Positions 8,105 to 43,998 of a stretch of 64,000 bases of DNA are shown piece by piece. The notes beneath the pieces were generated by a model that did not search any database, had not been told where the DNA came from, and saw nothing but the letters and a program-made list of their open reading frames with translations. Position 1 is the stretch's first letter; each line of letters starts with the position of its first letter. A program made the translations under genes and the position numbers. The DNA comes from Salinimicrobium catena (lineage in GTDB: Bacteria > Bacteroidota > Bacteroidia > Flavobacteriales > Flavobacteriaceae): contig NZ_FNGG01000001.1 in NCBI RefSeq assembly GCF_900102915.1, forward strand, positions 124,001 through 188,000, given 5' to 3'.

Positions 8105-8147
8105 TGATTTTCATCATTTTTTTCGCATCCCTTCACGCATATTTTTG
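8105..8147 (+). promoter_or_regulatory. Crp/Fnr-type operator plus -7 box for the usp gene at 8170
   Basis: Palindrome CTGA-TTTTCA-TCAT (TGA at 8105, TCA ends 8116) and -7 box TATTTTTG at 8140-8147. Centre-to-box distance is 29.5 nt, the spacing shared by all eleven promoters of this group. The predicted transcript start is near 8152. Confidence 0.7.
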
Positions 8148-8169
8148 CAGGGTAAAATAGATGTGACTG

Positions 8170-8982
8170 ATGATGAATATCTTATTGCCCACCGATTTTT
8201 CAGCAAATGCAAGGAATGCAGCAGCATATGCCTTGCAGTTCTTGAAGGATACTGCCTGTAATTTTTACCTGTTACACGTAGTGCCTTTTCCTGCGGAAAA
8301 ATTGGGAGCGCACGCAATGAGCATGTCACCCGAGATCAGAGGGAAGTTCGACGAACTCCTCTCCTGGCTCGAAAGCATTAAGACAAATCCGGAACATCAT
8401 TTTCACGTTTGCTTTAAGGCCGATTACCTCATAGAAGCCGTCAGAGAGAAATGCAGTGAAAAAAAGATCGATCTCATCCTGATGGGCACCAAAGGCGCTA
8501 CCAATAACCAGGGCGCCGTTATCGGCAACCACACTTCAGATGTGATGCGAAAAGTAAAGTGTCCCGTTTTGGCCATTTCAGAAAATGCCACTTTCAAAGA
8601 GCATAAAGAGATCTTGTTTCCTACAGACTACAAGATCCACTATGGCAGCAGGATGTTGCGCACCTTGCTCAACCTGGCTTCTTTGTCTAATGCCAACGTA
8701 AAGATCCTGGAGATCTTCAATTCTGAAAAAGAACCCTCTCCAGAACAGATAGAGAACAGAGATTTCCTGCAGGATTCATTTTCTCCAAAAGTACCTGTTC
8801 TGCAAACCTATTACTCATCTAAAGAACATAATCCCAAAAAGGTTTTCGTATCCAACAGAAATGTAGATATGATAGTTCTGGCAGCCAAAAACCTCAACCT
8901 GTGCCAGAAATTTTTGCAGAATGACCAGGATGACCATATACCTTTCATTAACCAATTACCACTCCTGGTCCTGCACGGTTAA
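8170..8982 (+). CDS. universal stress protein, divergent tandem Usp
   Basis: This 270-residue protein opens with the Usp signature MNILLPTDFSANARNAA. It has a first Usp domain (about 1-138) and a degenerate second one (about 145-270). The nucleotide loop of domain one is altered (GTKGATNNQGAVIGNHT), and domain two lacks the G-x2-G-x9-G motif. Two ATGs stand in tandem (8170 and 8173), and either could be used. The gene has its own Crp/Fnr-type promoter, linking it to the low-oxygen/NO regulon. A terminator follows at 9029-9057. Confidence 0.88.
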   Translation: MMNILLPTDFSANARNAAAYALQFLKDTACNFYLLHVVPFPAEKLGAHAMSMSPEIRGKFDELLSWLESIKTNPEHHFHVCFKADYLIEAVREKCSEKKIDLILMGTKGATNNQGAVIGNHTSDVMRKVKCPVLAISENATFKEHKEILFPTDYKIHYGSRMLRTLLNLASLSNANVKILEIFNSEKEPSPEQIENRDFLQDSFSPKVPVLQTYYSSKEHNPKKVFVSNRNVDMIVLAAKNLNLCQKFLQNDQDDHIPFINQLPLLVLHG

Positions 8983-9028
8983 TTAGTGTTATTCCAATAG
9001 TTATTATTACTTTTTTTAATCTGCAATG

Positions 9029-9057
9029 CAGCACCTCCAAAGAGGTGCTGTTTTTTT
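9029..9057 (+). terminator. rho-independent terminator after usp
   Basis: CAGCACCTC and GAGGTGCTG (9029-9037, 9042-9050) form a 9-bp stem with a 4-nt loop, followed by seven T. Confidence 0.9.
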
Positions 9058-9086
9058 ATAAATAATTAGGACAAATTCCTCCTTTA

Positions 9087-9129
9087 TGACCTGCCTCATA
9101 ATGCAGGGGCCTATTATTAATGACTTTTG
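9087..9129 (+). promoter_or_regulatory. Crp/Fnr-type operator plus -7 box for ric (and probably norB)
   Basis: Palindrome ATGA-CCTGCC-TCATA (9087-9098) and -7 box GACTTTTG at 9122-9129, with the same 29.5-nt spacing as the other members. The transcript start is predicted near 9134, leaving a leader of about 34 nt before the ATG at 9168. Confidence 0.75.
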
Positions 9130-9167
9130 TTCCAAACATTTAAATCACCTAAATAAAAAATAGAGTC

Positions 9168-9893
9168 ATGAAAGAATTAGCATCAAAAACAGTCGCAGAC
9201 CTGGTAACCGAAAATATCAAGACTGCTCATATTTTTAAAAAGTACGGAATAGATTTTTGCTGCGGAGGCGGGATCAGTATCGAAAAGGCCTGTGCAAAAT
9301 ATAATGTTGATTATGACCTGCTGGTAACCGATCTTGAGAACGTTGACAAGGATAATTCCAAGGCAACAAATTACAACAGCTGGGAACTTGATTTCCTTAC
9401 AGACCACATCATCAACGTGCACCACACTTATGTGGAAGAGAACATTCCATTACTACTTCAGTATGCTGAAAGAGTAGCACAGGTACACGGGCATCATTAT
9501 ACTGAGCTGTTAGAAATAAAGGAACTGGTGAAAGAAGTAGCCGGCGAACTTAGCGCCCACATGAAAAAAGAAGAACTCATTCTCTTCCCGTTCATCAAAA
9601 AAATGGTACAGGCCAAGAAAGAAGGTTCGGCATTACCCGAAGCCCATTTTGGAACAGTAGACAATCCCATTAAAATGATGGAAACGGAGCACGAAGACGC
9701 CGGGGAAGTTCTCCGCAAGATCGCCTCTTTAAGCAGCAACTATACTCCGCCGCAGGGCGCCTGTAACACCTATCGGGCCTTTTACGCGAAGCTCGACGAA
9801 TTTGAGCAGGACCTGCATCAACATGTGCATTTGGAGAACAACATCCTGTTCCCAAAATCGCTTCAGCTGGAAAAAGAACTTAGAAATCAATAA
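9168..9893 (+). CDS. ric: di-iron iron-sulfur cluster repair protein (Ric/ScdA/YtfE)
   Basis: Ric proteins restore Fe-S clusters damaged by nitric oxide or oxidants by means of a hemerythrin-like di-iron centre. The 241-residue protein has the short N-terminal ScdA domain (about 1-58) with the vicinal cysteine motif FCCGGG (C31, C32). A four-helix hemerythrin domain follows, with ligand candidates in DHIINVHHTY, LSAHMKKEE, ETEHEDAG and HQHVHLENN. Its length is normal for the family. It is followed 98 nt later by the NO reductase gene and has a regulon-type promoter, which fits NO defence. Confidence 0.95.
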   Translation: MKELASKTVADLVTENIKTAHIFKKYGIDFCCGGGISIEKACAKYNVDYDLLVTDLENVDKDNSKATNYNSWELDFLTDHIINVHHTYVEENIPLLLQYAERVAQVHGHHYTELLEIKELVKEVAGELSAHMKKEELILFPFIKKMVQAKKEGSALPEAHFGTVDNPIKMMETEHEDAGEVLRKIASLSSNYTPPQGACNTYRAFYAKLDEFEQDLHQHVHLENNILFPKSLQLEKELRNQ

Positions 9894-9912
9894 CATACAA
9901 TTACTAACTAGC

Positions 9913-9975
9913 GAAGGTTGTTCTTCATAGCACACATTTTGCCGACCTTACGACGACAAAGAATGAGCAACCTTC
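9913..9975 (+). repeat. inverted repeat in the norB leader
   Basis: GAAGGTTG (9913-9920) and CAACCTTC (9968-9975) are inverted copies, and the match extends imperfectly inward. The arms enclose 47 nt between ric and norB. There is no T-run, so it could be an mRNA structure or a regulator site. Confidence 0.35.
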
Positions 9976-9991
9976 CTTTTTACATCTACTT

Positions 9992-12277
9992 ATGAGTAAA
10001 GAAAGAAAGTTGTGGCTGGCCTTTTTAGCGGTTACCACTATCTCGTTTGCCATCCTGGGCTATTATGGATTTGAGATCTATCAGAAAGCCCCACCTCAAC
10101 CAAAAAAGATCGTAACCACAGAAGGAGAGGTCCTGTTCGAGGGACAGGACATACTTGACGGCCAAAACGTCTGGCAAAGTATGGGAGGCCAGGAAGTGGG
10201 CTCTGTTTGGGGCCATGGAGCATATCAAGCACCCGACTGGACTGCCGACTGGCTGCACAGGGAATCTCTGTACATTCTTAACAAATGGTCTCAGGAAGAA
10301 CATGGACAGTCTTATGAAAGTCTTGCGAGCGAAAAGCAGGCCGCCCTGGAGCGCCGGCTAAGAGAAGAACTTCGGAAGAATACGTATGACGAGGCCACCG
10401 GTATTATCACCGTTTCTCCTCTAAGAGCTGAAGCCGCCGAAAACCTCCACGGGTACTATAAAGGCCTGTTCATGGAGAATCCGGAACTGGACGAGTTACG
10501 TAACTACTATGCTATTCCAAAGAATGCGATCAAAGATGAAGGGCGAATGAGACAAATGAGCGCCTTCTTCTTCTGGGCCACCTGGGCCACCGTTACCGAA
10601 AGACCCGGCAGCGATGTTACCTATACCCATAACTGGCCACCTGAAGAACTGGTTGGCAATAAACCCACCGGAGACCTGTTGATCTGGACCGGTTTTAGTA
10701 TCATTCTTCTTCTCTTCGGAATTGGGGTAATGGTTTTTTATCATGCCAAAATGAAAGCTGAACATTCCCCTGAAATGCCCGTGGAAGATCCTTTGATGAG
10801 ACAAACCATCACGCCTTCTATGCAGGCGGTGAAGAAGTACCTGTGGGTAGTGAGTCTTCTCATCCTGGTACAGGTCACATTTGGGGTGGTAACCGCCCAT
10901 TATGGGGTGGAAGGTGATGGGTTCTATGGACTTGACCTGGCAAAGATCCTTCCCTACTCGATCTCCAGGACCTGGCACGTACAGCTGGGAATTCTCTGGA
11001 TCGCCACCGCCTGGCTGGCCACCGGACTCTATATCGCTCCGGCTGTGTCGGGGAAAGATCCGAAGTTCCAGAAATTGGGAGTCAACTTCCTCTTTATCTG
11101 TCTGCTTATCATTGTTGCCGGTTCTATGGCCGGACAATGGATGGGTGTGATGCAAAAATTAGGTCTGGCCGAAAACTTCTGGTTCGGGCACCAGGGTTAT
11201 GAATATGTCGACCTGGGCCGCTTCTGGCAGATCTTCCTTCTCGTAGGACTCTTCCTGTGGCTGGCTTTGATGACAAGACCGTTATTACCGGTGCTACGCA
11301 AAAAGACTTCAGAAAGAAACCTATTGCTTATGTTCCTGGTTTCTTCCGCAGCCATTGCCTTGTTCTACGCCGCCGGACTTATGTGGGGAAGACAGACCAA
11401 TCTGGCCATTGCAGAATACTGGCGCTGGTGGGTAGTTCACCTTTGGGTAGAAGGATTTTTCGAGGTCTTTGCCACAGTAGTTGGCGCCTTCCTCTTTGTG
11501 AGGCTGGGACTGCTTCGAACCAAGACAGCGACCCTAAGCGTGCTCTTGGCTACCGTGATCTTCCTTTCGGGAGGTATTTTAGGAACTTTCCACCACCTGT
11601 ATTTTTCGGGAACTCCAACCGCAGTGATGGCCCTGGGAGCCACGTTCAGTGCGCTTGAAGTAGTGCCTCTTGTACTGATAGGTTTTGAGGCCTATGAAAA
11701 CTATAAAATGAGTAAGGCCACCAAATGGATCAGCGATTATAAATGGCCAATCTACTGCCTTGTAGCTGTTGCCTTCTGGAATTTCCTTGGTGCTGGTATC
11801 TTTGGGTTCATCATCAATCCGCCAATCGCGTTGTATTACATGCAAGGCTTGAACACCACTGCCGTCCATGCCCACACCGCACTTTTCGGAGTCTACGGAA
11901 TGCTTGGAATTGGCCTGATGATGTTCGTTCTAAGAAGTATGTATCGCCAACAGGTATGGAGCGAAAAACTGCTGAAGTTTTCTTTCTGGTCCATCAACAT
12001 AGGACTTATCCTGATGGTCGTTCTTAGCGTGCTGCCTATTGGGCTGCTCCAAACCATCGCGAGCGTGAACGAAGGAATGTGGTATGCACGTTCTGCCGAG
12101 TTCATGCAGCAACCGGGAATGGATACCCTGCGCTGGATGCGTGCCATTGGGGATACCATTTTTGCCATAGGCCTGGTATCTTTCGTGTGGTTCGTATTTT
12201 CACTTAACAGCAAAAAGAAAAAGACTCAGGAAATAAGAGTTGAAAAAGAGGAGCCTGTTCTTGAGGAAGTGGAATAA
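9992..12277 (+). CDS. norB: quinol-dependent nitric oxide reductase (qNOR)
   Basis: qNOR reduces two NO to N2O with electrons from quinol at the cytoplasmic membrane. The 761-residue single chain has the NorC-like N-terminal extension of the quinol type: one membrane helix at about 8-28, then a periplasmic segment with GQDVWQ-like and GSVWGHGAYQAPDW motifs. A heme-copper-oxidase-like core of 12 or more helices follows. Heme/FeB histidines are visible in SRTWHVQLGI, GTFHHLYFSG and VHAHTALFGVYG. There is no CxxCH, as expected for qNOR. It lies behind ric and ends in a strong terminator. With nirK in the same window it gives nitrite to NO to N2O. Confidence 0.96.
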   Translation: MSKERKLWLAFLAVTTISFAILGYYGFEIYQKAPPQPKKIVTTEGEVLFEGQDILDGQNVWQSMGGQEVGSVWGHGAYQAPDWTADWLHRESLYILNKWSQEEHGQSYESLASEKQAALERRLREELRKNTYDEATGIITVSPLRAEAAENLHGYYKGLFMENPELDELRNYYAIPKNAIKDEGRMRQMSAFFFWATWATVTERPGSDVTYTHNWPPEELVGNKPTGDLLIWTGFSIILLLFGIGVMVFYHAKMKAEHSPEMPVEDPLMRQTITPSMQAVKKYLWVVSLLILVQVTFGVVTAHYGVEGDGFYGLDLAKILPYSISRTWHVQLGILWIATAWLATGLYIAPAVSGKDPKFQKLGVNFLFICLLIIVAGSMAGQWMGVMQKLGLAENFWFGHQGYEYVDLGRFWQIFLLVGLFLWLALMTRPLLPVLRKKTSERNLLLMFLVSSAAIALFYAAGLMWGRQTNLAIAEYWRWWVVHLWVEGFFEVFATVVGAFLFVRLGLLRTKTATLSVLLATVIFLSGGILGTFHHLYFSGTPTAVMALGATFSALEVVPLVLIGFEAYENYKMSKATKWISDYKWPIYCLVAVAFWNFLGAGIFGFIINPPIALYYMQGLNTTAVHAHTALFGVYGMLGIGLMMFVLRSMYRQQVWSEKLLKFSFWSINIGLILMVVLSVLPIGLLQTIASVNEGMWYARSAEFMQQPGMDTLRWMRAIGDTIFAIGLVSFVWFVFSLNSKKKKTQEIRVEKEEPVLEEVE

Positions 12278-12299
12278 ATAAAATTTCTTAATAGCATTT

Positions 12300-12352
12300 T
12301 AAAAGGGGTGTGAGCATTTTGTAACCTTCAAAACATCACACCCCTTTTATTT
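12300..12352 (+). terminator. rho-independent terminator after norB
   Basis: AAAAGGGGTGTGA and its exact complement TCACACCCCTTTT form a 13-bp stem around a 22-nt loop, followed by an A/T tract rich in T. The next gene starts only about 18 nt later in the same direction, so it needs readthrough or a promoter within or near the stem. Confidence 0.75.
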
Positions 12353-12367
12353 TTTTAATTTTAAGCC

Positions 12368-13561
12368 ATGATCAATCTGAAAAAACACGCCCAAATCTCA
12401 TTGGGCTACTTTTTGCTCGCCGCCCTGCTGGGAGTATTCTTAAGATTTTTCTTTGTTACCTCGATTCCAGCGAACTTTAGATATGTGGTGCACGCACACT
12501 CGCACATCGCCTTGCTGGGCTGGGTCTATCTGGGGCTGAGTACCCTGATCTACAAAATGTATTTTCAGAAGGCAGGTACAGCAAAGACCTACAGGCGTAT
12601 ATTCTGGTTCACCCAGGTGACATTGCTGGGCATGCTGTTCACCTTTCCTTTCACCGGTTATGCCGCCCTTTCCATCACCTTTTCCACTCTTTTTCTGTTC
12701 GCTTCTTACCTGTTCACCTGGTTCGTACTCAAAAAGGTACCTGAAAAATATAAAAGAACCGCCTCTTTCAGGTCTATAAAAGGGGCTTTGTGGTACCTGG
12801 TCTTTTCCAGCATTGGCCCCTGGGCGCTCGGGGGAATAATGGCCACCCTTGGCAAGACCTCCATCTGGTATAAAATGGCGATATATTTTTACCTGCACTT
12901 TCAGTACAACGGCTGGTTCATCCTTGCCCTCTGCGGCGTCCTGTTCTACTTCCTGGAGAAACTGGGACTGGCTCCCAGAAAAAAGGATTTTTCACGCTTC
13001 TTTTACCTCCTCAATGCCGGGGTGATCCTCAGCTTCTTTCTGTCTGTGCTATGGATAGAACCTCACTGGATCTTTTACGCACTTGGTGCCCTGGGCGCGA
13101 TCTTGCAGCTCATGGCATTTTTCGAATTCTTCGGAATTTTACGGAATAAAGACCTGCAATTTTCACCCTTTGTAAAATCACTGCTGAAGATAGCCGCCCT
13201 TCTGCTGGCGGTAAAGATCATCCTGCAGCTGTTCTCTGCCCATCCCTTTTTCGCGGAGCTGGCTTTCACCTATACCGATTTTGTCATTGGGTACCTGCAC
13301 TGGACCTTCCTTGGCCTCGTAAGCATCACTCTTTTTGCCTTTTTTGAGATCACTGGCCTGCTGAAGGTTTCAAAAATGGTTTTCTGGATCTATTTTGTTG
13401 GATTCGCACTTACTGAAGCATTGATCTTCTACAAAGGCACCTCCATATGGCTGGGTTGGCCTTTCGTTGAAAATTATTTTACCATACTTGCAATAGTTAG
13501 CGGTCTGCTCCCGCTTTCCCTGGCAATCATGCTGACCAAAAACCTGTTAACAAAAGAGTAA
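12368..13561 (+). CDS. 12-helix heme-copper-oxidase-like membrane protein, function unknown
   Basis: This 397-residue protein is almost entirely hydrophobic, with about 12 predicted helices, the number in a minimal heme-copper oxidase subunit I. Helix 2 contains a histidine cluster VHAHSHIALLGW, close in style to the heme-ligand helix of the neighbouring NorB (VHAHTALFGVYG) and of CcoN (AHVHVGALAW). Further histidines lie in helix 6 (YLHFQYNGW), just after helix 9 (SAHPFF) and in helix 10 (YLHWTFLG). No paired HH motif for a copper or FeB site and no CxxCH is present. It follows norB directly, so a role in NO or heme handling is likely. I cannot assign an activity; it is distinct from NnrS as far as I can judge. 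Confidence 0.75.
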   Translation: MINLKKHAQISLGYFLLAALLGVFLRFFFVTSIPANFRYVVHAHSHIALLGWVYLGLSTLIYKMYFQKAGTAKTYRRIFWFTQVTLLGMLFTFPFTGYAALSITFSTLFLFASYLFTWFVLKKVPEKYKRTASFRSIKGALWYLVFSSIGPWALGGIMATLGKTSIWYKMAIYFYLHFQYNGWFILALCGVLFYFLEKLGLAPRKKDFSRFFYLLNAGVILSFFLSVLWIEPHWIFYALGALGAILQLMAFFEFFGILRNKDLQFSPFVKSLLKIAALLLAVKIILQLFSAHPFFAELAFTYTDFVIGYLHWTFLGLVSITLFAFFEITGLLKVSKMVFWIYFVGFALTEALIFYKGTSIWLGWPFVENYFTILAIVSGLLPLSLAIMLTKNLLTKE

Positions 13562-13633
13562 ACCTTTCCTAAAACTCAGGGATTTACCAAAGCCTTAACG
13601 CACTATGGCCCTGTGGTTTATTATCTTTTGAAC

Positions 13634-13855
13634 ATGAGACAGTCAGCGATATTTCATGTAGTTATAACCACGATCCTTCTGGTGGCAGTTGCCGTTATGG
13701 TTTTCTACAACCTGTCTTATGACCTTATCTTCTATACAGTGCTTGCGGGACAGGCCTGGTGGCTTCTTACTGTCTACAAAGTGCTCACAGACGACTATTC
13801 CACAGATAAGACTTTTGATGACTGGTATGAAGACCATCCTGTAGGGAGAGACTAA
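13634..13855 (+). CDS. small two-helix membrane protein, function unknown
   Basis: The protein has 73 residues from the ATG at 13634; a GTG at 13613 would add seven residues but is less likely. Two hydrophobic helices (about 5-25 and 28-46) are followed by an acidic, aromatic tail (DDYSTDKTFDDWYEDHP). I do not recognise the family. It lies between the NorB-linked membrane protein and ccoI, in the same direction. Confidence 0.55.
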   Translation: MRQSAIFHVVITTILLVAVAVMVFYNLSYDLIFYTVLAGQAWWLLTVYKVLTDDYSTDKTFDDWYEDHPVGRD

Positions 13856-13910
13856 CCCAATGCTCTTCTAATGAGTGATATCCACGCCTGAACATTTACT
13901 TCCCTTTTCC

Positions 13911-13953
13911 TGATCCAGGTCATATTTTATAATCCCCTCATTTTCAAACTTTG
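13911..13953 (+). promoter_or_regulatory. Crp/Fnr-type operator plus -7 box for ccoI
   Basis: Palindrome CTGA-TCCAGG-TCATAT (13911-13922) and -7 box AAACTTTG at 13946-13953, spacing 29.5 nt. The transcript start near 13958 lies downstream of the first in-frame start (13951), which supports the ATG at 13984 as the real start of ccoI. Confidence 0.8.
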
Positions 13954-13983
13954 CACCCGGTACGAAACGAGCAATTTATTTTT

Positions 13984-19069: not shown

Positions 19070-20521
19070 CTACTTTCTGGATTTCACCATTTCGGTGGTA
19101 ACTTCTGTCTTATTGTTGCCCCAGTTGTTGTACACATAGGTAAGCACGGCTGCAACATCCTCGTCAGAAATATTTTGTTTAGGCATGGCGCTGTTGTAGA
19201 TATTTCCGTTCACTTCCACTTCTCCGGAGAGACCGAATTTCACCACTTCTATTGCCCTGTGCACATCTGCATTCAGGTAGTCTGAATTGGCAAGCGGAGG
19301 GAAAGCGTTAGGGATACCGGCACCGGTAGCCTGGTGGCAGGCAAGACAGTTCTGAGTGTACACCTGCTTACCTCTTTCCATTTTTTCGGCAAGAGATGCT
19401 TCGGAAACCTGAGCAGTTTCAGCTTCTTCAGTAACTTCGGCTGAAGCGGTAGTACCTGGATTGTATACATTTTCAGCAATTTTACCACCCCAAACTTTTT
19501 CATTCTCTTCACCTTCCACTTTCAGAATTCCCAGGGCTCCTTTATTGAAAGCCCTGAAGATGGAGTGGTCAACCAACACCAGGTTACCGGGTACGTCAAC
19601 TTTGAATTCCACGATGGCAGCACCACCGGCAGGGATAAGAGTGGTTTGTACATTCTCGTTGATCATGGCACCACCTTCAACGTGTACCTTGTCAAAGATC
19701 TCTCCAATAACGTGGAAAGAAGAAACCAGGTTAGGACCACCGTTACCTACGAACAATCTTACGGTCTCTCCCACCTTCGCGGTAAGGGCGTTGTCTCCGG
19801 TTAGCCCGCCAACTTTTCCGTTGAACACCACATAATCGGCATCCTCGTCAACGGCTTTTTCCATGCTAAAGGCCTGCAGCCCTCTTTCGCCATTTTCACC
19901 TTCAGTATAGAAATCTCCCTGCATTACATAGTATTCTTTATCAACAGGTTCAAGTCCGCCTTCGGGCTCAACAAGAATAAGTCCGTACATTCCGTTTGCG
20001 ATGTGCATTCCCACAGGGGCAGTGGCACAGTGGTACACATAAAGTCCGGGGTTCATGGTTTTGAAAGTGAACACGGCTTCATGGCCGGGAGCCACAAATG
20101 AAGATTCGGCTCCGCCTCCGGGACCGGTCACCGCGTGCAGGTCAATGTTGTGAGGCAGTTTACTGTCCGGGTGGTTCTTTAAGTGGAACTCTATTTCGTC
20201 TCCTACTCTTGTACGTATAAAGCTTCCCGGAACGGTACCGTCAAATGTCCAGTACACATAGCTAACGCCGTCGCTCATTTCCATTTCTTTTTCCACCACT
20301 TCCATATTAACTACGAGCTTTGTGGCGGCTCTTTTTCCTACCGGCCGCGGAACCATAGGCGGCGCAGTTAGTTCGGCTTCACTTTCGCCGTAAACTTTCA
20401 TTTTTTCAGGCTGTTCTTTGGCTGCCACGGCCTTTTCACAAGAAGTAAGCACCCCGGCTAAAACAGCGGCTGCAAAGAACAGGTAAACCAGTTTCAATTT
20501 AGATGTTTTAGAATTTTTCAT
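19070..20521 (-). CDS. nirK: copper nitrite reductase NirK (AniA type) fused to cytochrome c, lipoprotein
   Basis: NirK reduces nitrite to NO with type 1 and type 2 copper. The 483-residue chain begins with a lipoprotein signal (GVLTSC), then two cupredoxin domains with copper ligands in [25 protein letters not shown] (Cys near 165) and [10 protein letters not shown]. The [16 protein letters not shown] stretch is close to Neisseria AniA. A linker of about 30 residues leads to a C-terminal class I cytochrome c domain with CLACH at 392-396, a built-in electron donor. The ATG at 20521 is chosen because the promoter (-7 box 20558-20565) lies downstream of the alternative start at 20560. It is the first gene of nirK-nirV-sco. 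Confidence 0.95.
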
Positions 20522-20557
20522 GATCGGATTTTTAGAAGTCAATTTTAATTTCAGACA

Positions 20558-20600
20558 CAAATGTCCTAAATAGGTTCCGGGCTAAATATGAGCGTAATCA
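20558..20600 (-). promoter_or_regulatory. Crp/Fnr-type operator plus -7 box for nirK
   Basis: The minus strand reads ATGA-TTACGC-TCATAT (20600-20589), then the -7 box GACATTTG (20565-20558), spacing 29.5 nt. It is divergent from the cbb3 promoter, whose palindrome is 56 bp away. Confidence 0.8.
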
Positions 20601-20644: not shown

Positions 20645-20687
20645 TGATCGAGGTCATATTTAGAGAAAGAGACACCTCCTAGTTTTG
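20645..20687 (+). promoter_or_regulatory. Crp/Fnr-type operator plus -7 box for the cbb3 operon
   Basis: Palindrome CTGA-TCGAGG-TCATAT (20645-20656) and a perfect -7 box TAGTTTTG at 20680-20687, spacing 29.5 nt. The start of transcription near 20692 leaves only about 14 nt before ccoS. Confidence 0.85.
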
Positions 20688-27050: not shown

Positions 27051-27093
27051 TGACCGCGGTCATACTTAAACCTGCATTTATGAGCCAACTTTG
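27051..27093 (+). promoter_or_regulatory. Crp/Fnr-type operator plus -7 box for yceI at 27116
   Basis: Palindrome CTGA-CCGCGG-TCATA (27051-27062; the core is a perfect palindrome) and -7 box CAACTTTG at 27086-27093, spacing 29.5 nt. The leader is about 18 nt. Confidence 0.75.
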
Positions 27094-31387: not shown

Positions 31388-31984
31388 ATGATCGACGAAA
31401 ACCTCCTGCTCGACTTCGGAGCAAAAAAAATATCCTTTTCAAAGGGCGACCAGCTCTTCAGGGAAGGGGAAAGCGCGCTGAACTTTTACCAGGTGGTTTC
31501 CGGAGAGATCAAAATGAACAACTACAATGAAGACGGCAAGGAATTCATCCAGGGAATTTTTGCCATGGGCCAGAGTTTTGGCGAACCTCCGCTCCTGGCC
31601 AACGTAAAGTATCCGGCGAATGCAGAAGCGATTTCAGATGCTGAAGTTCTCCAGCTGTCAAAAGAGAACTTCTTAAAACTTTTGACCTCCAATCCCGCGG
31701 TACACTTAAAGATCACCGAAACCCTGGCAAAAAGGTTATTTTATAAAGCTATTATGGTCTCTGAGATCTCCAGCCAGGAACCCGAACACCGCATTCTACG
31801 AATTCTCGATTACCTCAAGAAATATGTGCACAAAGTCGAAGGTAAATTTGCGTACAGGGTAGATCTCACCCGCCAACAACTCGCCGACCTTACCGGCCTT
31901 AGGGTGGAAACAGTGATAAGAGCCACCAAATCTCTTGAGAAAAAAGGCGAGGTACAGATCAAAAAACGCAAGCTTTACAGATAA
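31388..31984 (+). CDS. Crp/Fnr family transcription regulator without cysteines
   Basis: The 198-residue one-component regulator has a cNMP-binding-like domain (about 10-120), a dimer helix and a C-terminal winged HTH (LTRQQLADLTGLRVETVIRA). The recognition helix keeps the Glu and Arg (VETVIR) that contact TGA half-sites, so it could read the TGA-N6-TCA operators of this window. It contains no cysteine at all, which excludes an Fnr-type Fe-S cluster; heme (as in DNR-type NO sensors) or no ligand would be alternatives. It is coupled to thioredoxin (4-nt gap) and followed by a terminator. Confidence 0.92.
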   Translation: MIDENLLLDFGAKKISFSKGDQLFREGESALNFYQVVSGEIKMNNYNEDGKEFIQGIFAMGQSFGEPPLLANVKYPANAEAISDAEVLQLSKENFLKLLTSNPAVHLKITETLAKRLFYKAIMVSEISSQEPEHRILRILDYLKKYVHKVEGKFAYRVDLTRQQLADLTGLRVETVIRATKSLEKKGEVQIKKRKLYR

Positions 31985-32041: not shown

Positions 32042-32084
32042 TGATTCAGGTCATATTCTCCCACAGGCTCTCCCTTTAGATTTG
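32042..32084 (+). promoter_or_regulatory. Crp/Fnr-type operator plus -7 box for the membrane protein-hemoglobin pair
   Basis: Palindrome ATGA-TTCAGG-TCATAT (32042-32053) and a perfect -7 box TAGATTTG at 32077-32084, spacing 29.5 nt. The predicted start is near 32089, 22 nt before the ATG. Confidence 0.85.
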
Positions 32085-34255: not shown

Positions 34256-34298
34256 CAAAATTATGGGATGAATTGGTCCTAAAATATGATTCCAATCA
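34256..34298 (-). promoter_or_regulatory. Crp/Fnr-type operator plus -7 box for hemN
   Basis: The minus strand reads CTGA-TTGGAA-TCATAT (34298-34287), then a perfect -7 box TAATTTTG (34263-34256), spacing 29.5 nt. It lies between the stop of the AsmA-like gene and hemN. Confidence 0.85.
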
Positions 34299-36415: not shown

Positions 36416-36427
36416 TGCTCAAAAAAG

Positions 36428-36883: not shown

Positions 36884-36913
36884 GCTTTGATTTTTTAGGT
36901 TTAACGGGATCCT

Positions 36914-36938: not shown

Positions 36939-36952
36939 CCCGAAAGGAATTT

Positions 36953-39900
36953 TTACATGTCTCTGTAAAGTTCTAATCGCTCCCACTTGGAATCCACTTC
37001 TTCCTGGGCCTGTTTCAACAGGTTGGCACCCAACTCTGCATTCTCTTTGGCTACCCGGGTAAAGCGGGTCTCGTTGTACATGAACTCCTGAAGCGGTGCT
37101 GCAGGCGGCTTGGAATCAAGTTTGAAACGTTTTCCTTTTTCCTTGGAAGGATCAAACCTGAACAGCGGCCAGTAACCGGTCTCCACAGCTTTTTCCTGCT
37201 GTTTTGCCCCGTGTTTCAGCTCGTAACCATGCTCCCCGCAGTGAGAGTAAGCGATAATTATTGAAGGTCCCGGATAGGCGGTCGCTTCTTCAATGGCCTT
37301 TAGCGTCTGCAGGTCTTTGGCTCCTATCGCCACCTGGGCCACATAAACGTTCTGATAGGAAACTGCCTGTAAAGCGAGGCTCTTCTTAGAGGTTTTCTTT
37401 CCGGAAACCGCAAACTTGGCACTTGCTCCCAATGGAGTGGCTTTAGACATCTGACCTCCGGTGTTGGAATATACTTCGGTGTCCATTACCAGGATATTGA
37501 TGTCTTCGCCTGAAGCGAGAACATGGTCCACACCACCGTAACCAATATCATAGGCCCAGCCGTCTCCTCCCAGTATCCAGACTGCCTTTTTGCGCAGGTA
37601 CTCTGTTAACTGATTAAGCTTTTTAGCTTCGGGCGTATCGATGCTTGAAAGTATGGTCTTTAAATCCTCTATCTGAGTATGTTTTTCTTTCTTCTGAACT
37701 TCGGTCTCTTCAGGATTATTCAGTATAGCCTGCACCAATTGCGATCCTACGAAAGGCTCGAGCGATTTCAACAGGTCAACAGCGATCTCCTGCTTTTTAG
37801 TGAGCGCCAGTCTCATACCAAGACCGAATTCAGCGTTGTCCTCAAAGAGGGAATTTGCCCAGGCAGGACCCCTTCCGAATTCATTCTTCTTATATGGAGT
37901 GGTAGGAAGGTTACCTCCATAGATCGAAGAACAACCGGTAGCGTTAGCGATCATGATGCTGTCGCCATAAAGCTGGGTAAGCATCTTGATATAAGGGGTT
38001 TCCCCACAACCGGAACAGGCCCCCGAGAATTCGAATAACGGCTCAAGGAATTGCGATCCTTTCACATTGGTGATCTGCAGCTCTGTACGGTCGTAATATG
38101 GAAGTTTAGTAAAGTAATCCCAGTTGGCATTTTCAGCTTCGGCAACATCCAGTTTTGGTCGCATGTTGATCGCCTTGAAGTTCTCGATCTCCTTGCTCTG
38201 GGCCGGACAAACCGCCACGCAAAGGTCACAACCGGTACAATCTTCCGGAGAAACCTGCAGTATATAAGAATCTTCCCCTGTGAACGGCCGTCCCTTGGCG
38301 GGAACTGCCTTTAGGGAATCTGGTTTGTCTGAAATATCTACGGAAGGTACCACTTTCGCCCTGATGGCCGCATGCGGACAAATAGCCACACACTTGTTAC
38401 ACTGGGTACAAAGATCTTCGTCTTCCCATACCGGAACGAAATCGGCAATTCCTCGTTTTTCATACTGAGTGGTACCAGTAGGGAAAGTACCATCAATTGG
38501 GAATGCACTCACCGGAAGTTCATCTCCTTCCCCGGCAAGTATCTTACCAAGAACTTCTTTCACAAAAGGATCGGCTTCGCCCGTCATCATGGGCTTAAGC
38601 CCTTTTTGACTGGTGATCTGTTTTGGATAATCCACTTTTTGAAGGTATTCGAGCGACTTGTCCACAGCGTTAAAGTTCATCTGTACGATCTTCTCTCCTT
38701 TATGAGAGTAAGATTTCACGATCGCATCCTTGATCTTCTGAATAGCCTCATCCTTAGGAAGAACACCGGAAATGGCAAAGAAACAGGTTTGCAATACCGT
38801 ATTGGTCCTTTTACCAAGTTTCGCTTCATGGGCAACTTTGGTCGCGTCTACCACATAGAACTGCAGCTCGTTTTCCACGATCTCTTCCTGCATTTTCTGC
38901 GGAAGCATATCCCACACTTCCTCGTTTGAGAAAGGAGAGTTTAAAAGGAAAGTTCCTCCTTTTTTGATCTTTTTGAGGATATCGTATTTCTCGATAAAGT
39001 TGAACTGATGGCAGGCGATAAAATCGGCTGTATTGATCAGGTAACTCGAGTATATTGGATTAGGACCAAATCGCAAGTGTGATACGGTCTGCGAACCGGC
39101 TTTTTTGGAATCGTATACAAAATACCCCTGTACATAGTTATCGGTAGTTTCTCCAATGATCTTGATGGAGTTCTTGTTCGCGCCCACCGTTCCGTCTGAA
39201 CCCAGTCCGTAGAAAAGGCAGTTGAATGTGGATTTTTTAGTTTTGAATACAGGATTGTAAAGCAAACTTTTGAAGGTCACATCATCGTTGATACCAATGG
39301 TAAAATGGTTCTTTGGCTGCGGTTTCAGCATCTCGTCAAAAATTCCCTTCACCATGGCCGGGTTGAACTCTTTGGAAGAAAGTCCGTAACGCCCGCCAAT
39401 GATCTGCGGCATTTGCCTTTCGCTTTCAGCAAAAGCGGTGATCACATCCTGGTACAGTGGCTCTCCTGTACTTCCCGGTTCTTTGGTACGGTCAAGAACA
39501 GCGATCTTTTTCACGGTTTTTGGCAGCACCTCAATAAAGTCTTTCACAGAGAAAGGACGGAACAAGCGAACGATCAGCACCCCAACTTTTTCATCTGAAT
39601 TAAGCAGGGTATCTACTGTCTCTCTTACCGCTCCTTCTCCGGAACCCATGATGATCACTACACGCTCGGCTTCAGGATGACCTTCATAATCAAAGAGATT
39701 GTAACGACGGCCGGTGTGCTGATAAAATTCATCCATCACCTCCTGTACGATCTTTGGTACCCGCTCGTAGTGAAGATTGGCAGCCTCACGAGCCTGGAAG
39801 AAAACATCAGGGTTCTGTGAAGTACCTCTTATTACCGGACTGTCCGGATCTAAAGATCGTTTTTTGTGTTTCATGATCTCCTCTTCGGGCATCATGGCCT

Positions 39901-40480
39901 TGATGATCTCGTCTGGGATAGCATCTATTTTAGAGATCTCGTGAGAAGTTCTGAAGCCGTCAAAAATGTTCAGGAAAGGAACTCGTGACCTTAGGGTGGC
40001 TACCTGAGAGATCAGTGCAAAGTCCATCGCTTCCTGCACCGATCCTCCAAATAACATGGAATAACCCGTTTGACGGGCTGCCATGACATCAGAATGATCT
40101 CCAAAAATGGAAAGCGCATGGGTCGCAATGGTACGCGCGGCAACATGAATAACGTTCGGTAAAAGTTCTCCCGCTATTTTATACATGTTAGGGATCATGA
40201 GCAGGAGACCCTGGGAAGCAGTAAAGGTGGTGGTAAGGGCACCGGCCTGCAATGAACCGTGCACGGCACCGGCAGCACCCCCTTCGCTCTGCATTTCAAC
40301 TATTCTGGGAACGTTGTTCCAGATGTTCTTTTTACCTTTTGAACTATAAACATCCACATGTTCTCCCATGGGAGAAGCCGGCGTTATAGGATAAATAGCA
40401 CACACCTCATTTGTTTTATGTGCCACTCTGGCAACAGCCTCGTTGGCATCACAAATGAGCTTAGGGAATTTTTCAGCCAT
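36953..40480 (-). CDS. nifJ: pyruvate:ferredoxin (flavodoxin) oxidoreductase
   Basis: This homodimeric enzyme oxidises pyruvate to acetyl-CoA and CO2 while reducing ferredoxin. The 1175-residue chain has the full fused layout: pyrimidine-binding domain first (YPITPASPMGEH), transketolase-C-like domain, gamma domain (about 420-600, FYGLGSDGTVGANK), two 4Fe-4S clusters (CTQCNKCVAICP and CTGCDLCVAVCP), and the C-terminal TPP domain with the third cluster (CSGCGETPY) and GDGWAYDIGYGG. It is downstream of a small ferredoxin by 24 nt and shares its promoter. The enzyme is oxygen-sensitive in many species, consistent with control by a low-oxygen regulator. Confidence 0.97.
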   Translation of the reverse strand: MAEKFPKLICDANEAVARVAHKTNEVCAIYPITPASPMGEHVDVYSSKGKKNIWNNVPRIVEMQSEGGAAGAVHGSLQAGALTTTFTASQGLLLMIPNMYKIAGELLPNVIHVAARTIATHALSIFGDHSDVMAARQTGYSMLFGGSVQEAMDFALISQVATLRSRVPFLNIFDGFRTSHEISKIDAIPDEIIKAMMPEEEIMKHKKRSLDPDSPVIRGTSQNPDVFFQAREAANLHYERVPKIVQEVMDEFYQHTGRRYNLFDYEGHPEAERVVIIMGSGEGAVRETVDTLLNSDEKVGVLIVRLFRPFSVKDFIEVLPKTVKKIAVLDRTKEPGSTGEPLYQDVITAFAESERQMPQIIGGRYGLSSKEFNPAMVKGIFDEMLKPQPKNHFTIGINDDVTFKSLLYNPVFKTKKSTFNCLFYGLGSDGTVGANKNSIKIIGETTDNYVQGYFVYDSKKAGSQTVSHLRFGPNPIYSSYLINTADFIACHQFNFIEKYDILKKIKKGGTFLLNSPFSNEEVWDMLPQKMQEEIVENELQFYVVDATKVAHEAKLGKRTNTVLQTCFFAISGVLPKDEAIQKIKDAIVKSYSHKGEKIVQMNFNAVDKSLEYLQKVDYPKQITSQKGLKPMMTGEADPFVKEVLGKILAGEGDELPVSAFPIDGTFPTGTTQYEKRGIADFVPVWEDEDLCTQCNKCVAICPHAAIRAKVVPSVDISDKPDSLKAVPAKGRPFTGEDSYILQVSPEDCTGCDLCVAVCPAQSKEIENFKAINMRPKLDVAEAENANWDYFTKLPYYDRTELQITNVKGSQFLEPLFEFSGACSGCGETPYIKMLTQLYGDSIMIANATGCSSIYGGNLPTTPYKKNEFGRGPAWANSLFEDNAEFGLGMRLALTKKQEIAVDLLKSLEPFVGSQLVQAILNNPEETEVQKKEKHTQIEDLKTILSSIDTPEAKKLNQLTEYLRKKAVWILGGDGWAYDIGYGGVDHVLASGEDINILVMDTEVYSNTGGQMSKATPLGASAKFAVSGKKTSKKSLALQAVSYQNVYVAQVAIGAKDLQTLKAIEEATAYPGPSIIIAYSHCGEHGYELKHGAKQQEKAVETGYWPLFRFDPSKEKGKRFKLDSKPPAAPLQEFMYNETRFTRVAKENAELGANLLKQAQEEVDSKWERLELYRDM

Positions 40481-40504
40481 TTTTTTACATTTTATGAATA
40501 CATA

Positions 40505-40855
40505 CTAAGCCCCGTGAAGCCATTCTTTCTTTTCAAGCAACTCGGCTTCGGTTTCCTGGTAATCTTCCCGCGGATGGATACAATCTACAGGACAGACAGA
40601 AATGCACTGAGGCTCATCATGGAATCCTTTACATTCGGTACACTTATCGGCAACGATGAAGTAGAATTCATCCGAAAGCGGTTCGTTCTCTGCGTCGGCA
40701 TCCACTTCTTTACCACCTGGGGTGGTCACTGTTCCGCTAAGGGTTGTTTCGTCTGAATATGACCATTCTTGATCTGGTTCATAAATCGCGTTGTTGGGGC
40801 ATTCTGAGATACAGGCATCACAGTTGATGCATTCATCGTTTATAAAAAGAGCCAT
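40505..40855 (-). CDS. 2[4Fe-4S] ferredoxin (YfhL-like)
   Basis: The 116-residue ferredoxin has cluster motif one [16 protein letters not shown] and cluster motif two [18 protein letters not shown], with the long insertion between cysteines seen in Alvin/YfhL-type ferredoxins. An acidic insertion of about 40 residues separates the two motifs. It precedes nifJ in one transcript, so it is the probable electron acceptor of PFOR and, by extension, a donor to the complex I encoded nearby. Confidence 0.92.
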
Positions 40856-40890
40856 AATCTTAATTTTTAATTATTAGTAAAATTTTTCTA

Positions 40891-40933
40891 TAAAAGTATT
40901 TGAGGCATACCTGGTTTAACATGACCGCTATCA
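40891..40933 (-). promoter_or_regulatory. Crp/Fnr-type operator plus -7 box for ferredoxin-nifJ
   Basis: The minus strand reads ATGA-TAGCGG-TCATG (palindrome 40933-40922), then the -7 box TACTTTTA (40898-40891), spacing 29.5 nt. It is back-to-back with the korAB operator: palindrome centres are 63 bp apart, about six helical turns. Confidence 0.8.
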
Positions 40934-40984
40934 TATTTTCTTTTATGAAGAATTATTCTTAATAACCTTATTCCGAAGCCAATA

Positions 40985-41027
40985 TGATCTACATCATATT
41001 TAATACCTGAGAGTCCTTTTACATTTA
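40985..41027 (+). promoter_or_regulatory. Crp/Fnr-type operator plus -7 box for korAB
   Basis: Palindrome ATGA-TCTACA-TCATAT (40985-40996) and -7 box TACATTTA at 41020-41027, spacing 29.5 nt. The transcript start is near 41032. Confidence 0.8.
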
Positions 41028-41058
41028 CCCGAAGATCCAATGCTATCGGTAAATACTG

Positions 41059-42930
41059 ATGGTTTCTAAAACCTTAAATATGATCACAGAAAAAATGAAT
41101 CAAGCCGAATCCCTGGATGCAGTGGTAATTCGCTTTGTGGGCGATTCTGGTGACGGAATGCAGTTGACCGGGACTCAGTTCTCAGACACTTCTGCCATGT
41201 TCGGGAATGATGTGGCCACTTTTCCAAATTATCCATCCGAAATTCGGGCCCCTCAGGGAAGCCTTTACGGGGTTTCAGGATTTCAGGTTCATATTGGAAG
41301 TGTAGAGGTAAGCACTCCCGGCGACAACCTTGACCTGCTGGTCGCCATGAACCCTGCCGGGCTCAAGACCAACCTTTATGCTGTAAAACCGGGACAGACC
41401 ATTATTGTAGATGTAGATTCTTTTACCAAAAAGAACCTGGAAAAGGCACAATATGAGACCAATCCCTTACACGATGGCAGCCTCGAAAACTACCGCGTGG
41501 TCGAGGTGCCGATGACCTCATTAACCAAAGAGGCCTTGAAAGACATTGAAGGATTAGACAATAAAAGCATTACCCGCAGCAAGAACATGTTCGCGCTGGG
41601 AATGGTGTACTGGTTGTATGACCGCTCGCCGGAGCATACCATAGAATTCTTCCACAAAAAATTCAGGAACAAGCCTCATTTAATAGAGGCCAATACCAAG
41701 GTGCTCAATGCCGGATTCTTTTATGCTGAAACCATCGAATTGATCCCCAACTCCTATAGTATATCTCCGGCTAAAATGGCAGGTGGTACTTACAGGATCA
41801 TTATGGGAAATACTGCTACCGCATGGGGATTTTTAGCAGCCGCTGAAAAATCTGGCCTGGAATTGTTCTTAGGATCATACCCTATCACGCCGGCCACCGA
41901 TATTTTGCACGAGCTGGTAAAACACAAACATTTTGGAGTGAAGGCTTTCCAGGCCGAAGATGAGATCGCGGGCATAAGCTCGGCGATCGGAGCTTCATTT
42001 GCCGGAGATCTTGCCATCACTACTACCTCTGGCCCCGGACTTGCTTTAAAAGGAGAAGCCCTTGGACTTGCGATGATGATAGAACTTCCGTTGGTTGTGG
42101 TAAACGTACAGCGAGGTGGCCCTTCTACAGGATTGCCCACCAAGACCGAACAATCTGACCTGCTGCAGGCTATGTACGGCCGTAACGGGGAGAGTCCGGT
42201 TATCGTGCTCGCTGCCAGCACTCCCGCAAACTGTTTCACCTATGCCTACCAGGCAGCGAAATTGGCCCTGGAGCACATGACTCCGGTGGTACTTTTAACA
42301 GACGGTTATATCGCTAACGGCTCGGCGCCGTGGAAAATAAAAAAACTGGAAGAGCTTCCCGAGATCAAGAACCACATTGTCAAAGAAGCCAAAGAGAACT
42401 GGCATCCATATGACAGGGATGAAGAAACCCTGGCCAGGAATTGGGCCATTCCGGGAACACCGGGACTGGAGCACAGGGTTGGAGGTCTTGAAAAAGACAG
42501 AATAACCGGAGATGTTTCTCACGTGCCCGAGAACCACGAGATCATGACCCACACCCGCGCAGAAAAAGTGAAGAGGGTGCAAAATTACATTCCTGAAGTG
42601 GTTCCGGAATTCGCCGAAGAAGGTGACCTGCTGGTCATTGGCTGGGGAGGAACTTACGGTTCCCTGCACTCGGCTGTGAAGCAGTTAAATTCTGAAGGAT
42701 ATAAGAACATCGGATTTGCACACTTCAACTATATCAATCCGCTTCCGAAGAATACGGGAGAGCTATTGAAAAAGTTCAAAAAGATCGTGGTCTGCGAACT
42801 TAACAACGGACAGTTCGTCAATGTGTTGAGAATGCACTTCAACCAGGACTTCCTTCAGCATAACAAGATCCAGGGCTTGCCTTTCGCAAACTCTGAACTT
42901 ATCGAAAAATTCAAACAACTGGTAAAATAA
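41059..42930 (+). CDS. korA: 2-oxoacid:ferredoxin oxidoreductase, fused gamma-alpha subunit
   Basis: With KorB this enzyme oxidises a 2-oxoacid, most likely 2-oxoglutarate, to its acyl-CoA with reduction of ferredoxin. The 623-residue chain carries the gamma domain first (about 20-200, RFVGDSGDGMQLTG), then the alpha/pyrimidine domain (about 210-460, GSYPITPATDILHEL; TTSGPGLALKGEALG; QRGGPSTGLPTKTEQSDL) and a C-terminal transketolase-like domain. The ATG at 41080 is a possible alternative start. It lies 2 nt upstream of korB. Confidence 0.94.
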   Translation: MVSKTLNMITEKMNQAESLDAVVIRFVGDSGDGMQLTGTQFSDTSAMFGNDVATFPNYPSEIRAPQGSLYGVSGFQVHIGSVEVSTPGDNLDLLVAMNPAGLKTNLYAVKPGQTIIVDVDSFTKKNLEKAQYETNPLHDGSLENYRVVEVPMTSLTKEALKDIEGLDNKSITRSKNMFALGMVYWLYDRSPEHTIEFFHKKFRNKPHLIEANTKVLNAGFFYAETIELIPNSYSISPAKMAGGTYRIIMGNTATAWGFLAAAEKSGLELFLGSYPITPATDILHELVKHKHFGVKAFQAEDEIAGISSAIGASFAGDLAITTTSGPGLALKGEALGLAMMIELPLVVVNVQRGGPSTGLPTKTEQSDLLQAMYGRNGESPVIVLAASTPANCFTYAYQAAKLALEHMTPVVLLTDGYIANGSAPWKIKKLEELPEIKNHIVKEAKENWHPYDRDEETLARNWAIPGTPGLEHRVGGLEKDRITGDVSHVPENHEIMTHTRAEKVKRVQNYIPEVVPEFAEEGDLLVIGWGGTYGSLHSAVKQLNSEGYKNIGFAHFNYINPLPKNTGELLKKFKKIVVCELNNGQFVNVLRMHFNQDFLQHNKIQGLPFANSELIEKFKQLVK

Positions 42931-42932
42931 CT

Positions 42933-43946
42933 ATGGAAACAACAATTCAAAAAAAGTACACGTACAAGGATTTTGGCAATGACCAGGAAGTAAGATGGTG
43001 TCCGGGTTGTGACGACTATGTTATTTTACGTTCTGTACAAAAAGCACTGCCCGAGATGGGCGTGAAAAAAGAGGATGTGGTATTCATTTCCGGGATAGGC
43101 TGCTCTTCCCGCTTTCCATACTACATGGGAACTTACGGAATGCACGGAATCCATGGAAGGGCTCCGGCGATCGCTTCGGGAGTGAAACTTGCGAATCCCG
43201 ACCTTAGCGTGTGGGTGATCACCGGAGATGGCGACAGTATGGCCATTGGCGGTAACCACTTCATCCACGTGCTAAGAAGAAATATTGACCTCAACATCAT
43301 TCTTTTCAACAATGAAATTTACGGACTCACTAAGGGACAATTTTCCCCTACATCCCTGGTGGGCCAAAAAACCAAATCCTCTCCTTTTGGAAATACCCAG
43401 CCACCGTTCTCTCCCGGAGAACTGGCCATTGGTGCACAGGCAAGATTCTTTGCCAGGATAGGCGGGAACGCCCCAAAAGAGATGAGCGACATTTTTGTGG
43501 AAGCCGAAAAGTTCAAGGGAACATCACTTATAGAAGTACTCCAGAACTGCGTGATCTTCAATGACGGCTGTTATGTAAAATACACAGACAAGACCGTAAG
43601 GGAAGACAAACAGCTATTCGTAGAGCACGGCAAACCTATGATCTTCGGAAAAGACAAGAACAAAGGCCTTGTCCTTAAAGGGCTGAAACTGGAAACTGTG
43701 ACCATTGGTGAAAATGGCATTACAGAAGACGATATCCTGGTACACGATGCGAAGGAAAAAGATCCTACCATGCACCAGATGCTGGTACGGTTGGAATATC
43801 CTTTAGTGACCGGAATTATCAGAAGTTTTGAAGATGTGACCCTGGAAGAAAGAGAAAATGCGCTTACTGAACAGATCAAAGCAAAGTCTGATTTCAAAGT
43901 GACCAATGACCTCTTCTTTTCGGGAGAAACTTACCAGGTAAAATAG
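42933..43946 (+). CDS. korB: 2-oxoacid:ferredoxin oxidoreductase, beta (TPP) subunit
   Basis: The 337-residue TPP-binding subunit has VRWCPGCDDYVILRS (cluster cysteines), GIGCSSRFPYY, and the TPP motif ITGDGDSMAIGGNH ending in NNEIYGLTKGQ. It pairs with KorA, whose stop is 2 nt upstream. The preceding alpha-gamma fusion and the presence of a separate PFOR favour 2-oxoglutarate as substrate, but specificity cannot be proved from sequence. The nuo operator begins 10 nt after its stop codon. Confidence 0.95.
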   Translation: METTIQKKYTYKDFGNDQEVRWCPGCDDYVILRSVQKALPEMGVKKEDVVFISGIGCSSRFPYYMGTYGMHGIHGRAPAIASGVKLANPDLSVWVITGDGDSMAIGGNHFIHVLRRNIDLNIILFNNEIYGLTKGQFSPTSLVGQKTKSSPFGNTQPPFSPGELAIGAQARFFARIGGNAPKEMSDIFVEAEKFKGTSLIEVLQNCVIFNDGCYVKYTDKTVREDKQLFVEHGKPMIFGKDKNKGLVLKGLKLETVTIGENGITEDDILVHDAKEKDPTMHQMLVRLEYPLVTGIIRSFEDVTLEERENALTEQIKAKSDFKVTNDLFFSGETYQVK

Positions 43947-43955
43947 CGGGAATCC

Positions 43956-43998
43956 TGATCATGATCAGTTCCTGCCTGCAGGGAAACTGTTAATTTTA
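43956..43998 (+). promoter_or_regulatory. Crp/Fnr-type operator plus -7 box for the nuo operon
   Basis: The perfect 14-bp palindrome CTGATCATGATCAG (TGA-N6-TCA at 43956-43967) is followed by the -7 box TAATTTTA at 43991-43998, spacing 29.5 nt. It is the only member whose right half does not continue as TCAT. Confidence 0.75.

Follow-up and report, generated by a model that had tools for sequence, protein, structure and literature searches.

A rigidly spaced Crp/Fnr-type composite promoter in Salinimicrobium catena and other Flavobacteriaceae, and its candidate readers

Which regulator reads one and the same promoter in front of genes for denitrification, a cbb3 oxidase and ferredoxin metabolism? 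This question is raised by a stretch of 64,000 nucleotides from Salinimicrobium catena (contig NZ_FNGG01000001.1, positions 124,001 to 188,000 of the forward strand), which we refer to as the window. Eleven transcription units of the window had been proposed to share a palindrome of the Crp/Fnr type, TGA-N6-TCA, followed at an invariant distance by a -7 box, and to form a local regulon, with two Crp/Fnr-type proteins encoded in the window as possible readers. A scan of the whole genome and of related genomes had been suggested as a check. Here, we show that this 43-nucleotide composite promoter has a single preferred spacing, that it is spread over the genome and the family Flavobacteriaceae, and that its number per genome follows the presence of two kinds of regulator. 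One of them, a receiver fused to a Crp part (REC-cNMP-HTH_Crp, termed REC-CRP; 7018 to 8073, plus strand), is the main candidate for the activator in S. catena.

A full two-strand listing of the window gives 92 copies of TGA-N6-TCA, both strands counted, and eleven of them carry a -7 box scoring at least 5 of 6 exactly 23 nucleotides past the end of the palindrome. These are the eleven units of the original prediction, at the same coordinates, and the anatomy described for them holds as well: the first base of (A/C)TGA is A or C in all eleven, the second half reads TCAT in ten (the site at 43956 has TCAG), and the box starts 29.5 nucleotides from the palindrome centre in every case and on both strands. 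The box follows TAnnTTT(A/G) exactly in seven sites and differs at the first base only in the other four (GACTTTTG, AAACTTTG, CAACTTTG and GACATTTG). At each of 40 other gaps between 5 and 45 nucleotides the window has 0 to 5 boxes of at least 5 of 6, and 60 first-order Markov copies of the window have 0.47 at gap 23 on average and three at most, compared with eleven in the real sequence. A long open frame follows each of the eleven boxes, with its ATG 17 to 112 nucleotides past the box; this distance is at most 40 nucleotides in ten of them, the exception being the cbb3 gene. These data support a composite of a Crp/Fnr-type site and a Bacteroidetes -7 box at fixed spacing, and the spacing is consistent with a palindrome centre at -41.5, the class II position.

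The same rigidity is seen in 80 hub loci (1.49 Mb) around the REC-CRP genes of named genomes, a set in which some genera occur several times. There are 314 boxes at gap 23, compared with 0 to 11 at any other gap between 5 and 59; palindromes with spacers of 4, 5, 7 and 8 give 2, 0, 3 and 1 matches at gap 23. The logo of 313 sites is asymmetric, with C (0.50) or A (0.34) as the outer upstream base and T (0.95) as the outer downstream base, followed by a T-rich stretch, and the commonest inner bases are T...A, i.e. TGAT-N4-ATCA. At the place expected for the -33 element, TTTG is absent from the logo. A sigma factor that reads a variant core promoter alone, without a Crp/Fnr protein, would presumably also impose a fixed distance between two elements. 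However, the upstream element here is a Crp/Fnr palindrome with its N6 spacer, and 13 genomes of at least 2.6 Mb without either candidate regulator have a median of 4 sites, so that this explanation appears scarcely tenable. Crp/Fnr proteins can also repress, and these sites might be true operators at which the regulator acts mainly as a repressor, or as an activator placed elsewhere than at the class II position. Since repressor sites need no such rigidity, the single spacing to the -7 box counts against a repressor, as does the -33 box missing from the logo, and we judge this reading very unlikely.

A box at the exact distance on both sides is found in 7 of 307 composite palindromes of the hub loci, so that two divergent promoters could share a single dimer; examples are C5:246046-246119 in the S. 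catena genome and a palindrome before the genes for 2-oxoacid:ferredoxin oxidoreductase (KOR) in L182 (genome G037). Among the proteins encoded downstream of the hub-locus sites, 148 of 295 cluster with universal stress proteins. In close relatives the site stands at equivalent genes and a deviant first base of the box is kept gene by gene: CAACTTTG precedes the YceI-like gene also in L099, L102 and L103, CATCTTTG precedes RIC in genome G007 (loci L224-L227), L098 and L100, and CAACTTTG precedes the CcoI-type ATPase gene in L100. First-base deviation thus recurs between genera at these three genes (L098, L099, L100, L102, L103 and G007), as if the YceI, RIC and CcoI promoters were kept weak.

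The regulon is not local, as had been claimed, but genome-wide and family-wide, with two hubs in S. catena. In its genome of 3.26 Mb the strict pattern matches 26 times and a reversed-pattern control never; with a gap of 22, one base too short, there is no match in the genome and one in the reversed control. An open reading frame (ORF) of at least 80 amino acids starts within 60 nucleotides of 19 of the 26 matches and within 200 nucleotides of 24, and three matches (L008, L017 and L026) lie inside an ORF of more than 150 amino acids, whether or not this is a gene. A gap allowed to vary from 8 to 38 gives 105 matches in the genome and 24 in the control, and among the 100 genome matches listed gap 23 accounts for 25, gap 24 for 7 and any other single gap for 0 to 5. 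A second pattern, with the first base of the box free and the flanks fixed, likewise gives 26 matches and no control match; 18 are shared between the two patterns, and their union with the window sites 9087 and 20600 amounts to at least 36 sites, eleven of them in the window. This is a lower bound, because variant patterns are only partly covered. Positions 221-249 kb of contig C5 form the second hub (L033, L034). Its genes encode Usp stress proteins, Hsp20, a PEP/pyruvate dikinase, an HlyD and FtsX-type exporter, MlaE and MlaD, as well as a second REC-CRP fusion. Isolated targets elsewhere in the genome include genes for an Rrf2-type regulator, citrate synthase, hemerythrin and cytochrome c.

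Three further places may be recorded here. At C5:144832 and C5:144966 (L001, L199) composites on opposite strands stand before an Rrf2-type regulator gene and the gene for a protein of 114 amino acids, and the gene after the Rrf2-type regulator gene resembles quinolinate synthase by eye. At C14:599042 (L213) a relaxed composite lies 23 nucleotides ahead of a gene that by eye resembles an FtsH-type protease, and at C5:182372 (L200) another precedes an ORF of at least 490 amino acids with no Pfam match at 0.01.

The scan of 199 Flavobacteriaceae genomes found 3411 strict sites compared with 486 matches to the reversed pattern. At least one strict site is present in 194 of the genomes, and at least one control match in 169, hence the signal is carried by the number of sites and not by their presence. 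In a sample of the phylum 217 of 296 genomes have a match, and the excess over the control shrinks with distance: 11.2 sites compared with 1.5 control matches per genome in the same order (6 genomes), 7.3 with 1.6 in the same class (37 genomes), 3.2 with 2.2 in family f23 (35 genomes) and 0.58 with 0.34 in the first 38 genomes of family f17. The distant genome G459 (family f46) has 32 strict sites and 3 control matches, far over most genomes outside the Flavobacteriaceae. This family is a major component of communities in soil, sea and fresh water, and in F. psychrophilum the cbb3 oxidase is raised at low oxygen and TAnnTTTG boxes are used, according to the accessible text of PMC9723704. Both observations on F. 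psychrophilum fit the low-oxygen promoter proposed here.

The S. catena genome encodes five HTH_Crp_2 proteins: the two REC-CRP fusions, a Crp/Fnr-type protein of 198 amino acids (31388 to 31984, plus strand) and two proteins with another reading helix. The REC-CRP of the window, whose nearest named counterpart is that of S. nanhaiense (87% identical), has a single cysteine, located in the receiver, and the 198-residue protein has none; thus, neither carries the cysteine ligands of FNR. A close relative of the FNR-like protein of other Flavobacteriaceae was not found in this genome (best E value 3.5e-28 versus a cut-off of 1e-40). The presence cut-offs were chosen by eye where the hit lists showed breaks, at a best E value of at most 1e-70 for REC-CRP and at most 1e-40 for the FNR-like protein. 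On this basis REC-CRP is called present in 86 of the 199 genomes (that of G194 being a partial match) and a separate FNR-like protein in 118. The median number of sites is 29.5 in genomes with both (n=48), 18 with REC-CRP only (38), 13 with the FNR-like protein only (70) and 3 with neither (43). Genomes of at least 2.6 Mb give medians of 30 (47), 18.5 (36), 14 (59) and 4 (13), respectively; with kinship ignored, REC-CRP only differs from neither with P=2e-6 and FNR-like only differs from neither with P=6e-6.

Most members of both groups show [S/T]-E-x-x-I-R at the reading positions. In the reading helix of REC-CRP, E317 and R321 are found in 81 of 81 proteins and I320 in 79 of 81, and TESAIR is present in all ten FNR-like proteins read, which come from genomes with 14 to 37 sites. 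Genome G123, with an FNR-like protein of altered helix (KETCIR), has 4 sites. According to the available part of PMC1274295, there is a correlation between residues 180 and 181 of CRP and the DNA motif. In a tree of 40 sequences the REC-CRP parts and the FNR-like proteins of Flavobacteriaceae form separate clades, with support of 100/99 and 97/95; a Pontibacter fusion (L177) falls outside the REC-CRP clade, and the deeper forks are weak or have long branches. The best solved match of the relatives' FNR-like protein is 2gau, a Crp/Fnr protein, and the next is an Fe-S FNR, aligned end to end. An FNR-like member that we aligned keeps three of the four FNR cysteine positions, the third N-terminal one being Asn, and has other cysteines. 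A view differing from our reading is taken in PMC8510549, where, in the text accessible, Crp/Fnr proteins of Ignavibacteria, Flavobacteriales and Saprospiraceae are linked to MalR and no control of denitrification was found.

The gene for a PAS histidine kinase (5756 to 7021, plus strand), a candidate haem oxygen sensor, overlaps the REC-CRP gene of the window. Fourteen distinct solved sequences match its PAS domain: 13 go by the names DosP, FixL, haem PAS sensor or yddU, and the remaining one is a multi-sensor histidine kinase. H72 aligns with the DosP histidine and R92 with the DosP distal arginine, which we take to be the proximal haem ligand and the distal residue. By sequence, the kinase therefore has the proximal histidine and distal arginine of a FixL-type haem PAS domain, a pair that is not seen in every orthologue: H72 is kept in 69 of 77 kinases and R92 in 52. 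The kinase adjoins REC-CRP in 76 of the 80 hub loci, two of the four misses being at a contig edge, and all 81 REC-CRP proteins have D52 in the receiver. Because of the haem-type PAS relatives, the kept H72 and R92, the adjacency of the kinase and the invariant D52, our leading model is an oxygen-sensing kinase that would act on the receiver-Crp fusion, i.e. a FixL with a merged FixJ-FixK.

Several observations weigh against this assignment of readers and signal. The correlation between regulators and site numbers ignores kinship, and presence is set by thresholds chosen by eye. Neither regulator was found in G048 (33 sites, genome 82% complete) or in G147 (22 sites, genome 73% complete); G138 has 22 sites together with 9 control matches. 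Ten of the 70 genomes with only the FNR-like protein have at most 6 sites, and G098, with REC-CRP only, has 6 sites and 7 control matches. Of the 77 kinases, 25 lack R92 and 8 lack H72. The 10 proteins checked around the second REC-CRP (L033, where part of the ORFs was checked) include no kinase, and none was found beside its counterpart in L176. Finally, the 198-residue protein has a reading helix V-E-x-x-I-R, with the same E, I and R, and could read some of the sites.

The last point leads to an alternative in which the denitrification and haemoglobin sites are read by the 198-residue protein, as a nitric oxide (NO) or redox sensor similar to DNR or NssR, and only the sites of stress proteins are left to REC-CRP. 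The gene of the 198-residue protein sits among the sites, near those of haemoglobin and hemN, DNR is among its solved relatives, and a GGTCAT half occurs in five of the eleven window sites and in none of those of the second hub. However, over the 199 genomes the site counts track REC-CRP and the FNR-like proteins. Moreover, G086 has an orthologue of the 198-residue protein with the same helix and, by our thresholds, neither REC-CRP nor FNR-like protein, and it has 3 sites. This test in one genome weakens the 198-residue protein as a general reader, and the division of labour described above seems unlikely to us. Thus, of the two window proteins originally put forward as readers, REC-CRP is favoured, as it tracks site numbers, and the 198-residue protein is disfavoured.

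The targets of the window are those named in the original prediction. On the plus strand, the composite at 8105 to 8147 precedes a universal stress protein gene (8170), whose orthologue in G007 and in L098-L103 also has a site. That at 9087 to 9129 (box GACTTTTG) precedes RIC (9168) and the gene for a NorB-type NO reductase with a cytochrome c-like domain (9992 to 12277, plus strand), and that at 13911 to 13953 (box AAACTTTG) the gene for a CcoI-type P-type ATPase (likely start 13984). The composite at 20645 to 20687 stands before the gene of the fused CcoN/CcoO of the cbb3 oxidase, and L101-L103 have a site at the equivalent gene; the one at 27051 to 27093 (box CAACTTTG) stands before the YceI-like gene (27116). 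At 32042 to 32084 the composite precedes the genes for a protein of 96 amino acids (32111) and a group III truncated haemoglobin (32412). Homologues of the 96-residue protein, 42-47% identical, are encoded downstream of composites in four hub loci (L102, L103, L107 and L108). On the minus strand, the composite at 20558 to 20600 (box GACATTTG) precedes nirK, encoding a copper nitrite reductase with a C-terminal cytochrome c (19070 to 20560, minus strand), that at 34256 to 34298 precedes hemN (likely start 34238), and that at 40891 to 40933, which was also compared in relatives, precedes the genes for a ferredoxin and pyruvate:ferredoxin oxidoreductase (PFOR; 36953 to 40480, minus strand). The two remaining composites, again on the plus strand, lie at 40985 to 41027 before KOR alpha and beta (41059 to 43946, plus strand) and at 43956 to 43998, with TCAG for TCAT, before nuoA.

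The nuo operon (44023 to 53958, plus strand) encodes an 11-subunit complex I with nuoA, B, C, D, H, I, J, K, L, M and N. It is not the 14-subunit NADH:quinone oxidoreductase, as NuoE, F and G are missing from the operon; E and G were searched for in the operon only, and NuoF has no match in the genome, the same search giving hits in 8 of 14 control genomes, 4 of them over the cut-off. The missing NADH module suggests that ferredoxin may be the electron donor of complex I. NuoA is present in only 21 of the 199 Flavobacteriaceae genomes. KOR alpha and beta lie directly upstream of nuo in 18 of the 20 relatives, the exceptions being G127 and G128, and 15 of these 18 have a gap-23 composite before KOR alpha; in G082, G116 and G181 no such composite was found there. 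In 5 of the 21 genomes, S. catena included, nuoA has a strict composite immediately in front of it, and in 9 of the 18 relatives nuoA lies 17 to 23 nucleotides past the end of the KOR beta match, so that it would be read from the KOR promoter. The original prediction had singled out the link of complex I and 2-oxoacid:ferredoxin enzymes to one switch as unexpected. The link itself is conserved across genera, since both the KOR-nuo order and the KOR composite are kept in relatives, and it makes metabolic sense because the complex I is headless.

We consider it probable that these promoters work by class II activation through a shortened FixL-FixJ-FixK route. An activator dimer on (A/C)TGAY-N4-RTCAT would replace the -33 element and contact RNA polymerase at the TAnnTTTR box, and the main readers in S. 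catena would be the two REC-CRP fusions, with FixJ and FixK merged into one protein. The adjacent kinase would most likely phosphorylate the REC-CRP of the window, its putative haem-binding PAS domain sensing oxygen. Low oxygen would then turn on the high-affinity oxidase, denitrification, NO repair, oxygen-independent haem synthesis and stress proteins, and also PFOR and KOR, which may deliver reduced ferredoxin to the headless complex I. Relatives with a cysteine-bearing FNR-like protein may use it at the same promoters; the reading helices of REC-CRP and the FNR-like proteins are nearly identical. A more general statement would be that Flavobacteriaceae have one rigid low-oxygen promoter and two sensors for it, an Fe-S FNR-like protein or a haem-PAS kinase with a receiver-FixK fusion, and that lineages without the Fe-S sensor, S. 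catena among them, employ these promoters to operate denitrification along with a headless complex I fed by ferredoxin; whether this holds appears to us evenly balanced. If it is true, two sensors acting at the same promoters would illustrate cleanly how a sensor is exchanged while the regulon is kept. For the Flavobacteriaceae this would provide a low-oxygen regulon that can be tested and a precise promoter rule, which could predict low-oxygen genes in many genomes, and the conserved block of ferredoxin, KOR and headless complex I suggests that this complex I receives its electrons from ferredoxin.

Each of the components has known kin, in the FixL-FixJ-FixK cascade, in class II FNR promoters and in headless complex I. 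What is likely new, as far as the open-licence literature shows, is the promoter rule of the family, together with the receiver-Crp fusion that probably reads it and the ferredoxin block conserved under it; in the available parts of that literature we recognised no description of a Flavobacteriaceae low-oxygen regulon with such a rule. The composite resembles class II FNR promoters in its TGA-N6-TCA palindrome and in a spacing that fits -41.5. In contrast to FNR sites, the outer base is A or C and not T, and the candidate readers of S. catena have no FNR cysteines. Control of NO, nitrite and haemoglobin genes by Crp/Fnr-type proteins is also known from the HcpR, DNR, NnrR and NssR regulons (accessible text of PMC1274295), and the present regulon differs from these nitrosative-stress regulons, of which that of gingivalis holds only hcp. 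An 11-subunit complex I without NuoEFG has been reported for Bacteroidetes, namely Prevotella, in the part of PMC6560451 available. Unlike that of Prevotella, the headless complex I described here stands directly behind KOR, under a composite promoter.

The FixL-FixJ-FixK cascade of rhizobia controls cbb3 oxidase and denitrification. Its form with FixLJ, FixK2 and NnrR is covered by PMC6710368, of which an excerpt was accessible. The likeness to the Flavobacteriaceae system lies in a kinase with a haem-PAS-like domain, a receiver and a Crp/Fnr-type activator without FNR cysteines, and in the targets cbb3 oxidase, CcoI and the nitrite and NO reductase genes. The differences are the Flavobacteriaceae -7 box and the ferredoxin enzymes and headless complex I as targets, and the joining of receiver and Crp domain in one protein. 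FixJ is a receiver with a LuxR-type HTH, whereas here the receiver is joined to a cNMP-binding domain and a Crp HTH. FixK is a stand-alone protein transcribed under FixJ, whereas here the Crp part is fused to the receiver, although it may work like FixK. With such a fusion, the transcription step from FixJ to fixK would not be needed.

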